A DNA stretch of 64,000 nt from Streptomyces sp. NBC_01198 (GTDB taxonomy: Bacteria; Actinomycetota; Actinomycetes; Streptomycetales; Streptomycetaceae): positions 3,727,001 to 3,791,000 of the forward strand of contig NZ_CP108568.1 of the NCBI RefSeq assembly GCF_036010485.1. The letters run 5' to 3'. Position 1 is the first letter of the stretch. Each line of letters begins with the position of its first letter. The position numbers and the translations under genes are program-made. Below the pieces are notes generated by a model. It was not told the DNA's origin. It saw only the letters and a program-made list of their open reading frames with translations, and searched no databases. Shown one piece after another: positions 144 through 7,354 of the stretch.

Positions 144-207
144 TGACGCGGCTACGGATGGTTGCTAGGTTCGAGAGCACTGGCCTGCTGCCGTGGGGGT
201 GGGGCGT

Positions 208-2294
208 ATGGGCTTCAAGTCGTTCGTCAACAAGCTCGGGGACGGTGTCGAGCACGGCGTCGACAAGGTCAAGAAGAAGGCCGGCGAGCTCGTCGACGAC
301 GGGGCTCATCTCGTCGGCGACGGCCTCGACCACGTCGGCCTGGACGATGCCGCGGACTGGGCCGAGGACAAGGGCGACCAGATCGCGGACGACCTCGGCG
401 CCCACGTCGCCGAGCAGCAACTCGGGCAGACCGACGACCCCAAGGAGTTGCTGCACGGCGAGTCGGGGAAGATCCAGGACGTCGCCCTCCACCTCGGGAT
501 GCTGTCCAAGGCGTTCGAGACGGGGCACACCGGCCTGATACCTACAACGCGTCCGTCGACCGCTACCACGACGACGTCAAGGCCTACAACGACAAGGTCG
601 ACGACGGCAAGGATCCCGGCGCCGAACCCGTCGCCCCGGGCGCTTTCACCGACCCCGGCGCTGCGGACAGGCAGAACGCCCGGCAGACCCTGGAAGCCGC
701 CCGCAAGCAGCGCGACACCGCCGCCGGACAGGCCGAGACCGCGGTCAGGACGGCAACCGCCCTGGCCCCGGCCAGGCCGGACTTCTCCGACCGGATGGTG
801 AACGACTTCGGCAACGTCCTCATGGCCCTCGCCACCGACGGCGGCAGCGCGGGAGCCAAGGCCGCCGAGAACATCGCCAAGGACGCCGCGGAAGGCGCCG
901 GCGAGCAGGCCGCCAGGGACGCCGCTCGCGCCGCTGCCCAGGACCCGCTCAAGGCGGGGATCCGCAAGGGCGCGAAGGACTGCGTGGGCGACCCGATCGA
1001 CGTCGCCACCGGTGACGTGCTCCTCACGCAGATCGACCTGACCCTCCCGGGAACCCTCCCCCCTCGTCCTCGAACGCACCCACCTGTCCTCGTACCGCAC
1101 CGGCCGCCTCTTCGGCCCGTCGTGGGCCTCCGCTCTCGACCAGCGCCTCGAACTCGACGCCCAGGGCACGGTGTTCGTCACCGATGACGGCGCCGTGCTG
1201 CTCTACCCGGTGCCGGAGCCGCACGTGCCCGTTCTGCCGCTCGCGGGACCCCGCTGGCCGCTGGAGTGGGACGGCGTCCCCGGCAGCCCCCTGCGCATCA
1301 CCGATGCCGGCATACCCCGCGGGATCCGGCACTCCGGCGGCTACCAGGTCCCGGTCGACACCGCCGGGGGCCGCGTCACCGGGCTGCGCCTCCTCGGGGG
1401 CGACCGGAGCGACGTCCAGGTGCGCGCCTTCGGGTACGAGTCCGGCGGGCACCTCGGCGAGGTCGTCAACTCAGCCGGGCAGCCCTATCGGTTCACCTAC
1501 GACCGGGCCGGCCGCATCACGTCCTGGACCGACCGCAACGACGCCGCCTACCACTACGCGTACGACTCCGGTGGCCGCTGCGTCGCCACGCACGGGCCCG
1601 ACGGCCACCTCGACAGCACTCTGAGCTATGACGACGCCGCCCGCACCACCGTGTTCACCGACTCGCTGGGCCATCGGCGCACCTATACCCACAACACCGC
1701 GTACCGCCTCGTCGCCGAAACCGATCCGCTCGGCCACACCACCACCCGCCAGTGGGACACCGAGAACCGGCTGACCGCGATCACCGACCCGCTGGGCAGG
1801 ACGACGCGTTACGCCTACGACGGCCCTTCGCACGCGCAGCCGTCGGTCATCACCCAGCCGGACGGCACGTCGGCGACGGCCACCTACAAGGCCTGGGGAC
1901 GGCCGCTCGCCGTCACCGATCCGGGCGGCGGGGTCTGGCGGCACACCTACGACGAGCGCGGCAACCTGGCGTCCCTGACCGACCCTTCGGGAGCCGCGAC
2001 GGTCTACGCGTACGACTCCGCGGGCGCGCCGGTGTCCGTCACCGACCCCTGGGTCTGGACGCGGCGCCCGATCACCATGCCTACGTTCCCAATCCGCTGC
2101 TCTGGCCGATCCGCTCGGACTCTCCTGCGATCCCGCAGGTCCGGGCAACGCCGCGAACTACGCGAAGCAGTTGCGCTACCTCCAGCAGGCGCAGAAATAG
2201 GGTCCGCGTCGGTCGCCCGGACGCCAAGGTGACCGGAGGCAAGAAGGTCCACTGCCTCTTCGACGCCCAGGGCAACTACATCGGCACGTTCTGA
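208..2294 (+). pseudogene. wrecked RHS/YD-repeat polymorphic toxin
   Basis: This is the remains of a large secreted toxin of the RHS/YD-repeat type. The ATG at 208 opens an amphipathic N-terminus (KSFVNKLGDGVEHGVDKVKKK) typical of Streptomyces proteins thought to leave by a type VII-like route. The frame changes near 537. A second frame carries a charged helical segment and the usual junction motif DPIDVATGDVLL. An over-long run of six C at 1058-1063 shifts the frame again. From there to about 2045 there are several YD repeats (YAYDSGG, YTHNTAYR, YDERGNL). The text then jumps straight to the end-of-core signature (HAYVPNPLLW, then DPLGLSCDPAG in another frame), so most of the RHS core is missing. 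A TAG at 2198 and a further frame follow, ending in GKKVHCLFDAQGNYIGTF, the likely end of the toxin tip. At least four lesions make an intact product impossible. One C-run could be a sequencing error, but the deletions are not explained that way. Confidence 0.85.
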
Positions 2295-5326: not shown

Positions 5327-7354
5327 TCACGAGTCGGCGGTGGGCGCCTGCGCCCGCGCGATGACGTCGAGCAAGTCCACCAGAACCGCCCAGGAGTTGG
5401 TGAGGCCGACCGCGCCCGCCTCCTCGGCCTGGCGGTGGTTCTGGCCGGAGACCTGGCCGGTGTAGAACACCACGGGTCCGCCGTATCCGGCCGCCCGGTA
5501 TTCGCTCACCGCACGGAAACCCGCGGTCGCGTCGCCGTCCCGCTTCGTGTCGGAGACGAGCACGTCGGGTGCGGCGTGCCGCAGCAGCCGGTCGACCGCC
5601 TCCCCCGTGCTCAGGGCCGCGGTGACCACGGCTCCGACCTGGCGCAGTTCCTGCACCAGATGCACCACGGACTCGGGCTTGTCGTCCACCCACAGGATGT
5701 CGAGCGGGAGGGACTCGGGGCGCGATTCGGCGGCCTGCCTGCGCCCGTCCTGTCCTGAGTCCTCCGTCCGCGGATACTGGTACGAGCCGGTGCGGCCGGA
5801 CTCGACGAGGCCGCCCCCGGGCGGCGCCGGATCGGCGGGAACCGGTTCGGGTTCGCGGCCGCCCCTCGCCGACGACCGCTCCGACAGCCGCTGCCGGGAC
5901 GGCGGCAGCGTGGTCTGCGGGAGCCGTCCCGCCGCCAGGGGTGACTGCTGGAGCAGCCGCAGGGCCGAGGGCCCGGCCGAGCCCTGCCGGATCAGCTCGC
6001 GCAGCCGGTCCGCGTAGGGCAGGCCGTTCAGCTCGGTGATCAGCCGCACGAAGGTGAGGTCGGCGGCCAGTTGGGGGAAGACGGGCGGCAACTGCTGCTC
6101 GAGCAGCTGCAGGTAGCTGTCCCAGCGCTCCGCGTCGCCGCGGTCGGGTCGGGGCAGCAGCCATTGGTCGGCGAAGCCGTCGAGGGCGTTCCAGCGCGGG
6201 TCGTCAGGGGTCACGGCGCGTCGCCGGAGCATGCCGCGTGCCTCGTAGTACCGGACGAAGTCGCCGATCATGTCGGTGCCGTCCGGCTGGCCCGCGGCGC
6301 GGTGGAAGTCGGGGTAGAGGTGCTGGAGCAGCACCGCGCGGACCGTCGCCTCCGGCTCCACGCCGGCCCAGCGCTGGTCGAGCTGGTACATCACCAGCCC
6401 GTTGATCAGCCGCTTGATACGGCGCGGGTTGCGGCCGGTGCGCTCGGCCACCAGGCTGGCCAGTCCGGGCGTGACGAACCGCTCGGTGCCGGACAGTTCC
6501 GCGTACCGCTGGACCAGCGCGGCGGCGCGCTCCACCCCCGGGGTCGGCACCCGGAAGCTCATCTGGACGATCTTCTCCAGGTAGTCCGCGCTCGGTGACG
6601 GGCCGCCCGCCGCGGCCGCCGCGGCCAGCCGTGACTGGTCGCAGCCGAGGACGAAGACGAGCCCCGGCACGTCGAGATAGACCTTGACGGCCTCGCACAC
6701 CGCGTGCACCGTCTCGTCCGAGCAGCGGTCGAGATCGTCCACGAACACCACGAGCAGACGGCGCCGCCCGGGCCCCTCACCGGCGTGCGACCACTCGGTC
6801 GCCATCTCCTTGATGAGCTGGCGGACGTCGTTACGCGTCGCCGCGTCGGTCTCCATCCGGGACCACAGCTCGTCCACGACCTGCCCCGCGTGCAGCAGTC
6901 CCAGCGCCACTGCCGTGGTGGTGCGCAGCACCCGCAGCGCAGTCCGGTGCTCCCGCGCGCGGTTGAGGGCGCGGCGCAGCACATTGCGGTCGAACCGCAT
7001 CAGCACGGACTTGAGCAGGCCTTCGAGCGCGTCGGCGCCGTGCGAGGTCCAGGCGTTGAACCACAGGCACTCCGTGCGCGGGTACTGCGCGAGCACCTCG
7101 GCGACCTGGTGCATCAGGCTGGACTTGCCCATGCCCCAGCCGGCGTCGACGGCGACGGTGAACGGAGTGGAGTTCCGCGAGGCGGCGATCAGATCCGCGA
7201 GGCGGCCGGCGATGGGGCGGGTGCCGAGCACGTCCTCGTCCTGGTCCTCGCTGAACCCGGAGCCACGCAGCGGCTCGTCGTTGAGGAACGCGTAGCCGGG
7301 TGCGGACTGGGGTCCTTCGTACGGTAAGCGTGGCGGAACGGCGGAGTTGCCCAC
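5327..7354 (-). CDS. KAP-family P-loop NTPase with C-terminal receiver-like domain
   Basis: The protein has 675 residues. Residues 40-400 form a KAP NTPase (a STAND-like P-loop family). The P-loop GWGMGKSS lies near 72-79 and the Walker B strand LLVVFVDDLDRC near 200-211, followed by the typical sensor region (LGCDQSRLAAA) and the arginine-rich NPRRIKRLING. The low hydrophobic stretch near 145-160 could touch the membrane, as in other KAP proteins. After a Pro/Gly/Arg-rich linker (about 480-545), residues 549-670 look like a response-regulator receiver. They have the acidic pair WVDD (557-558), an Asp at 602 in the phospho-acceptor position, a Thr at 632 (FYTG), and GLTN where the usual Lys should be. 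The start is GTG with no clear Shine-Dalgarno sequence and may be leaderless. Codon 10 is TTA. KAP NTPases are repeatedly found in phage-defence loci. A defence role here is inference. Confidence 0.85.
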   Translation of the reverse strand: MGNSAVPPRLPYEGPQSAPGYAFLNDEPLRGSGFSEDQDEDVLGTRPIAGRLADLIAASRNSTPFTVAVDAGWGMGKSSLMHQVAEVLAQYPRTECLWFNAWTSHGADALEGLLKSVLMRFDRNVLRRALNRAREHRTALRVLRTTTAVALGLLHAGQVVDELWSRMETDAATRNDVRQLIKEMATEWSHAGEGPGRRRLLVVFVDDLDRCSDETVHAVCEAVKVYLDVPGLVFVLGCDQSRLAAAAAAGGPSPSADYLEKIVQMSFRVPTPGVERAAALVQRYAELSGTERFVTPGLASLVAERTGRNPRRIKRLINGLVMYQLDQRWAGVEPEATVRAVLLQHLYPDFHRAAGQPDGTDMIGDFVRYYEARGMLRRRAVTPDDPRWNALDGFADQWLLPRPDRGDAERWDSYLQLLEQQLPPVFPQLAADLTFVRLITELNGLPYADRLRELIRQGSAGPSALRLLQQSPLAAGRLPQTTLPPSRQRLSERSSARGGREPEPVPADPAPPGGGLVESGRTGSYQYPRTEDSGQDGRRQAAESRPESLPLDILWVDDKPESVVHLVQELRQVGAVVTAALSTGEAVDRLLRHAAPDVLVSDTKRDGDATAGFRAVSEYRAAGYGGPVVFYTGQVSGQNHRQAEEAGAVGLTNSWAVLVDLLDVIARAQAPTADS

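Follow-up and report, generated by a model that had tools for sequence, protein, structure and literature searches.

In Detocs, receiver logic is used in an anti-phage protein, and a sensor kinase and a receiver-only protein are encoded beside the effector. The system is named, as a defensive two-component system, in the available part of a meeting report (PMC9966839). The KAP family of NTPases (PF07693), which includes PifA, QatA, Tmn and others, has a common P-loop NTPase core, and the accessible text of PMC10853773 ties one KAP NTPase to anti-phage neighbourhoods. The title of the founding KAP paper, as cited in the portion of PMC11846954 available to us, speaks of an NTPase domain with inserted transmembrane segments, and the same portion describes the KAP-family protein Tmn, with its two transmembrane domains, as blocking several E. 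coli phages by a mechanism that was unexplored. Conflict systems contain kinase-independent receivers, and KAP is named as a replacement for STAND NTPases, in the extracts consulted of PMC8195603; both there and in the extracts of PMC7159879 it is suggested that such receivers are nucleotide-responsive switches. Pseudo-receivers are defined by Bourret and colleagues as receivers by classification with at least one of five residues missing, and the switching of bacterial pseudo-receivers is described as a mystery in the sections available of that work (PMC12632262).

The gene described here lies on the minus strand of the window, the whole stretch of 64,000 nucleotides from Streptomyces sp. NBC_01198 that was analysed. 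The initial annotation had read it as a KAP NTPase fused to a receiver-like domain, and this is borne out by an intact NTPase and a true receiver fold. What distinguishes the window protein from the other KAP-family members is its C-terminal receiver. In contrast to Tmn, as described in the part of PMC11846954 available to us, its insert seems to have no strong membrane segment, the best 19-residue hydropathy mean within residues 101-185 being 1.23 in the window protein and at most 1.84 among six proteins compared. Unlike in Detocs, neither a sensor kinase nor a receiver-only protein was seen by eye beside the gene. With the MoxR-vWA and STAND conflict systems (PMC8195603 and PMC7159879, in extract) there is a receiver type in common, found in a Rhizobium vWA-SLOG protein, whereas the window gene is single and solitary; reading the neighbours by eye, no MoxR, vWA or EAD gene was seen beside it, and no MoxR or vWA gene beside its relatives. 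The bacterial pseudo-receivers of PMC12632262, in its available sections, share with it a receiver fold in which one catalytic residue out of five is missing, but the window family keeps D, DD and T, has a near-constant Arg at D+3 and is joined to a KAP NTPase. As for the cyclic-phosphate receivers called cRec (PMC7824862, available in part), Response_reg was the only model listed over the receiver in Pfam at E ≤ 1, in a library that may lack a cRec model.

That this layout had not been described was already suspected at the outset, and no paper on a KAP-receiver fusion was found in full-text searches of the literature, a negative result that falls short of proof of absence because the founding KAP paper and most subscription papers and preprints lie outside its scope. 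In the accessible parts of PMC13194489 and PMC11117518, KAP and receiver or response-regulator terms both occur, for separate genes.

Architecture of the window protein

The features of the gene and its product, all on the minus strand, are as follows.

5327..7354, minus: KAP NTPase and pseudo-receiver open reading frame, 675 residues, GTG start
6383..7216, minus: KAP NTPase domain, residues 47-324 (Pfam PF07693, E 2.3e-32)
7118..7141, minus: Walker A, residues 72-79, GWGMGKSS (K77 in 55/55 rows with a letter, one row gapped)
6725..6754, minus: Walker B region, residues 201-210, ending in DDLDR (D206, D207, D209 and R210 in 56/56 rows)
5987..6367, minus: helical region following the NTPase core, residues 330-456 (secondary structure of the model)
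5723..5977, minus: disordered linker, residues 460-544 (pLDDT below 50)
5348..5701, minus: pseudo-receiver, residues 552-669 (PF00072; models; Z 17.8 to PmrA)
5681..5686, minus: acidic pair D557 and D558 (kept in 53/56 and 51/56 rows)
5549..5551, minus: D602, the phospho-acceptor position (51/56 rows)
5540..5542, minus: R605 at D+3, hallmark of the receiver type (51/56 rows)
5396..5407, minus: GLTN, residues 650-653, at the place of the catalytic Lys (column 653, Lys in 0/56 rows)

The KAP_NTPase model of Pfam matches residues 47-324 with 112.9 bits, its cut-off being 20. In an alignment of 56 rows, made of the window protein, 53 called relatives, L005 and L009 (which shares its record with L072, a locus outside the alignment), the NTPase motifs are invariant, as listed above for K77 and the Walker B acids and in 56/56 rows for N309-R312 (NPRR). 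The AlphaFold2 model of the whole protein (39 rows) has a mean pLDDT of 78.0, with the NTPase and the helical region ordered, the receiver ordered in blocks mostly above 90, and residues 460-544 below 50. Compared with AAA+ proteins, the KAP part of this model gives Z 16.0 over 256 residues with Aeropyrum ORC2, and a Foldseek search with the whole model returned clamp loaders and Cdc6/ORC proteins, the third match being RdrA of RADAR, which forms a heptameric ring. Because clamp loaders and Cdc6/ORC proteins appear in the same list, the RdrA match would indicate a common AAA+-like core in the predicted structure and nothing more. To our knowledge RdrA has no receiver.

Among the padloc models, PifA (86.4 bits), QatA (85.1) and PDC-S20 (69.5) match parts of the KAP region, and the QatA equivalog of NCBIfam reaches 96.8 bits where its cut-off is 600. 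Since the QatA score lies under its cut-off and the padloc matches have their best stretches in the KAP region, membership of the window protein in a named defence system is unproven.

For the receiver, Response_reg (PF00072) matches residues 553-650 of the whole protein with 31.9 bits, and the last 129 residues searched alone reach 36.3 bits, both against a cut-off of 30.2. Modelled alone with AlphaFold2 (22 rows), the domain has a pLDDT of 93.7 and the (beta-alpha)5 order, and its best VIA match is the PmrA receiver 9of6_A, with an rmsd of 1.9 over 119 residues at the Z value listed above. The possibility raised with the initial annotation, that the domain might not model as a Rossmannoid receiver, is dispelled by this model and this match. 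A search of the PDB by sequence alone was weak, with designed TIM barrels first (E 8.6e-6) and a response regulator at 0.0037.

The residues first picked out from the sequence, WVDD (the acidic pair at 557-558), D602, T632 and GLTN at 650-653, had been read correctly. With Asp557, Asp558, Asp602 and Thr632 present and GLTN in place of Lys, the domain is a pseudo-receiver as Bourret and colleagues define it in the available sections of PMC12632262. The full set of five catalytic residues, DD, D, T and K, is found neither in the window protein nor in any other of the 56 rows, K being absent throughout: Lys occurs in no row at column 653 or at columns 651-656, and in four rows at column 650. The T position holds T or S in 43/56 rows and has lost it in 13/56, while D602 and the unusual Arg at D+3 are each kept in 51/56. 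The five rows without D602 (L005, L056, L083, L084 and L087) retain the domain itself, including the GF, R and YxGPVVF segments in slightly changed form, and were assigned to the genus of the window by the genus search. Four of the five branch with L080 (support 93), which keeps the Asp but has lost the Arg and the first residue of the acidic pair.

With five degenerate rows excluded, receiver variability peaks in helices 1 and 5 and is lowest in strands 1, 3 and 4 and in the loop preceding strand 5, a pattern that fits either the recognition of changing partners or weaker constraint. In 10 close pairs, not all of them independent, omega ranges from 0.10 to 0.37 for KAP and from 0.14 to 0.71 for the receiver; the receiver value exceeds the KAP value in 9/10 pairs and is below 1 in 10/10. 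Among the neighbours in seven of these pairs, omega is 0.04-0.17 for the aminotransferase, 0.10-0.30 for the D-aminoacylase and 0.32-0.65 for the sugar kinase (the last two where both were called). The KAP and receiver rates are therefore not exceptional, as other neighbours reach their values.

Distribution, chromosomal site and repeated loss

The species genomes of GTDB were scanned with a 12-row alignment, and 103 stretches were confirmed, the best 80 of which correspond to 77 loci. Among these best 80 stretches there are 63 KAP relatives (L034-L096), all in actinomycetes, of which 58 are full length, four are broken or truncated (L091, L094, L095 and L096) and one is a ClpC-KAP fusion (L088); the other 14 loci, left out here, are distant KAP relatives or match the receiver only. 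Fifty-three of the full-length relatives were called as proteins of more than 500 residues, and five (L070, L071, L072, L077 and L092), missed or shortened by the gene caller, were found by tblastn only; in L077 the receiver motif went undetected in a motif search. The fusion recurs in Streptomyces, Kitasatospora, Saccharopolyspora, Actinopolyspora, Amycolatopsis and others, and because it is seen across these genera its recurrence is beyond chance. The window protein pairs with that of Kitasatospora Root107 (SH-aLRT 97; 54% identity in the best segment), and its ten-row branch, with support 100 and two long branches flagged, also includes Saccharopolyspora, Actinopolyspora, Halopolyspora and Amycolatopsis. 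Apparent N-terminal extensions of 400-500 residues in L014-L017 were rejected as protein and read by eye as the antisense of a conserved gene; an aminotransferase gene lies there, divergently oriented.

At the level of the family, 19 of 121 genomes match (E ≤ 1e-30, nine candidates scored per genome), the broken copies of G006 and G112 being counted among the 19. With only this fraction of family genomes matching, we rejected the idea of a universal housekeeping locus, which would have told against the first reading of the gene. When genomes drawn from the phylum were searched with the KAP region of the ClpC-KAP protein, 2 of 396 matched, the source genome included (E ≤ 1e-25, four candidates scored per genome).

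Thirty-eight of the 54 proteins in the tree lie at one chromosomal site, marked by a divergently oriented aminotransferase gene and by a D-aminoacylase gene, and 16, the window protein among them, lie elsewhere. A protein was placed at the site when the aminotransferase, or the D-aminoacylase plus the next gene, was no more than three genes away; L053, one of the 16, is on a short contig and may be cut. All 35 genomes of the genus have the aminotransferase gene. In these the site carries the gene in 13 (G001, G003, G004, G005, G009, G012, G017, G018, G019, G024, G026, G033 and G034), a relic 41 to 67 codons long, or else multiple fragments, in five (G006, G007, G021, G022 and G027), and is empty in 17, including the source genome's own copy of it. 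Twenty-seven of the 35 sites were searched directly and the other eight were judged by match positions adjoining each other, a site being called empty when none of nine family proteins matched it at E ≤ 1e-4. In the empty site of G029, about 600 matchless bases lie between two flanking genes; among the gene-bearing sites, the C-terminal domain is out of frame with the NTPase in G034 and strongly degenerate in G024. The gene is thus accessory, with repeated losses. On the simplest interpretation it would have been present early at the conserved site in the genus, and the losses would have followed from there.

No defence-island setting was seen around the family loci, and padloc, applied to ten neighbouring window genes, returned a single match, a MerR-type regulator. 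The phage search gave no match, 36 pattern matches in viral contigs included no relative, and among ten plasmid records there was one strong match, a ClpC-KAP fusion without receiver. On these counts, phage or plasmid cargo was rejected as an explanation. Neither neighbour clustering nor the reading of 13 off-site loci revealed an operon partner common to several genera, and no histidine kinase neighbour common to genera was seen when the neighbours were read by eye.

Some neighbours recur more locally. Directly upstream of the gene and on its strand, a small protein that by eye looks like an RsbW-type ATP-binding protein is encoded at L063:7333-7839 and L093:7369-7836 (both plus strand), and a kinase-like partner is therefore possible at these two loci; the RsbW-like cluster (c37) comprises four loci, L072 and L094 being the others. 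In four Saccharopolyspora loci (L043, L050, L060 and L064) the gene of a small SixA-type histidine phosphatase-like protein (cluster c35, by eye) lies two genes downstream, which may be plain synteny. A trypsin-like gene (cluster c12; for example L035:9973-10770, plus strand) occurs in the vicinity of the KAP-receiver gene at 14 loci and in most of them follows it immediately; it is probably independent, since L094, one of the 14, has only a truncated KAP-receiver copy. In the window itself, positions 162-2232 (plus strand) hold YD-repeat, Rhs-like frames out of register, by eye a broken or frameshifted gene, and elsewhere in the source genome there is a second, distant KAP NTPase gene (G000:C1:7609027-7610718, within a 935-codon frame).

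The ClpC-KAP fusions are found on a Streptomyces plasmid (L113:4390-7356, plus strand) and on an Agromyces chromosome (L088:6510-9428, plus strand). In both, a ClpC-like N-terminal part consisting of two Clp_N, an AAA lid and UVR is followed by a KAP NTPase of the window family, which replaces the second Clp ATPase domain, and there is no receiver. By eye, the P-loop seems to have been lost from the first AAA domain of the Agromyces protein.

The receiver type in other proteins

The receiver alignment was compared with 41 relatives and 296 class genomes, and plasmids were searched by tblastn; all of the resulting counts are lower bounds. Matches were found in at least 23 of the relatives (E ≤ 1e-8), in at least 8 of the class genomes (E ≤ 1e-13, 15 candidates scored per genome) and in at least five plasmid records, of which the regions L111, L112 and L114 were inspected; L114 has no open reading frame of 200 residues or more over the match on its strand. 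In the 41 relatives, the translated matches outside KAP proteins are canonical receivers, except for L118. This survey of domain partners, proposed along with the initial annotation, found the receiver type, with its signature of WxDD, [ST]DxxR and no Lys, in KAP proteins, in membrane-anchor-like proteins and in one conflict-locus protein.

L178 is a KAP protein with two receivers in tandem. Small proteins in which the receiver type follows hydrophobic N-terminal segments, judged by eye to be anchors, are L118, L179-L183 and the E. coli L112. The conflict-locus protein, of 1509 residues, is encoded on a Rhizobium phaseoli plasmid, is annotated as a SAV_2336 N-terminal domain-related protein and has vWA-like, receiver, SLOG and caspase-like parts; SLOG is over its Pfam cut-off, the receiver with 21.9 bits is under its own, and the other parts were recognised by eye. 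Genes for MoxR and an EAD5-trypsin protein adjoin it, and the whole region (L111:492-8808), with EAD5-trypsin, MoxR and the vWA-receiver-SLOG-caspase-like protein, looks like a ternary conflict system.

By eye, eight non-KAP receivers have [ST]DxxR in 8/8 and Lys at the K position in 0/8. In a tree of 39 receivers, 26 of the window type are split from 13 canonical ones with support 100/100; as the canonical rows were hand-picked from the survey matches in the 41 relatives and the root is a midpoint root, the tree gives a split without a direction. At the sequence level, the window receiver is shown to be kin to the receivers of membrane-anchor-like and conflict-system proteins. A more far-reaching proposal, which we regard as improbable, is that receivers with this signature make up a separate, histidine-kinase-free family common to KAP NTPases, membrane-anchored proteins and conflict effectors, in which the acidic pocket and the new Arg would bind a phosphorylated or nucleotide signal, and that the actinomycete KAP NTPase would be a one-gene, signal-gated immune or stress switch.

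Related sequences were also met in other settings. In the same-order genome G043, a 1116-codon frame (L173) around the match L120 has, by eye, a KAP part, then two degenerate receivers and a TPR-like C-terminus. In E. coli (L112:3565-6354, L185 and L186), a small protein annotated as a response regulator and carrying the Lys-less receiver type is encoded between yfgI and guaA; an AAA ATPase adjoins it, with a partial integrase-core gene in the two annotated regions read, and the gene occurs in 26 of 5,426 genomes, chromosomal in all.

A candidate switch and the competing readings

Taken whole, the best explanation we can offer, held tentatively and at somewhat less than an even chance, is that the window gene encodes a solitary, accessory signal-transduction ATPase, an NTPase switch with a pseudo-receiver as kinase-independent input or docking module, plausibly in stress or phage defence. 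The KAP NTPase would bind ATP and assemble into an oligomer, and the tethered pseudo-receiver would work without a dedicated histidine kinase. Its acidic pocket may bind a partner, or else a metal-dependent phosphorylated or nucleotide ligand, and whichever is bound would determine in which state the NTPase is. The role would most likely be that of a stress or anti-phage switch, in view of the patchy distribution, the repeated loss and the occurrence of this receiver type in a conflict locus. The defence reading is one that we infer from the kinds of domains and the pattern of loss; it is countered by neighbourhoods of an ordinary kind and by the lack of relatives in phages, viral contigs and plasmids, bar one record of another layout. 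Of the earlier proposal of a candidate defence gene, then, a role in stress or phage defence stays plausible, but it is unproven, with most gene-bearing loci at one ordinary metabolic site, only the MerR-type match from padloc and no relative in phages or viral contigs. The accompanying idea that a phospho-relay couples the switch to signalling has become weak, with Lys missing in 56/56 rows, the phospho-Asp missing in 5/56 and no genus-spanning histidine kinase seen.

A related possibility is that D602 is phosphorylated by an orphan histidine kinase encoded at some other place in the genome and that this switches the NTPase, which would make the protein a true, if inefficient, response regulator. 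We consider this unlikely, given the K column without Lys in all 56 rows, the T position with T or S in just 43, the five rows without Asp (L005, L056, L083, L084 and L087) that yet keep the domain, and the high variability of helices 1 and 5, which are part of the usual kinase-docking side of a receiver. What speaks for such a regulator is that DD, D and T are present in the window protein, that D602 is kept in 51/56 rows and that, according to the available sections of PMC12632262, phosphorylation can survive substitutions at DD, T or K. Perhaps instead the function lies in the NTPase, and the receiver has become a vestigial, relaxing tail, as the higher omega of the receiver in 9/10 pairs and the loss of Asp in 5/56 rows and of T or S in 13/56 would allow; this is decidedly unlikely, since the fold, DD, D and the D+3 Arg are retained by most rows, omega of the receiver stays below 1 in 10/10 pairs and one lineage has tandem receivers.

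The remaining readings concern the place of the gene rather than its receiver. A local regulator of metabolism, acting with the neighbouring aminotransferase and D-amino-acid genes, would suit the 38/54 proteins at that site or no more than three genes from it, but is very unlikely when 16/54, the window included, are off site and when 17/35 genomes of the genus have both metabolic genes without the family gene and five have relics only. It is extremely improbable that the gene belongs to a mobile or selfish element of plasmids or phages; the strong match in one of ten plasmid records is a different fusion, phages and viral contigs gave none, and the neighbours that were read resemble ordinary chromosomal genes. 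In its favour are the patchy distribution and the unrelated chromosomal places across genera.

For the question of how bacterial pseudo-receivers are switched, the family offers a compact test case, with one gene, an assayable ATPase and, in many members, Lys as the sole missing receiver residue. The natural variants without Asp and the natural loss of the gene at a fixed chromosomal site add to this value. If the receiver gates the NTPase, the family would show a kinase-free receiver serving a defence-type ATPase.
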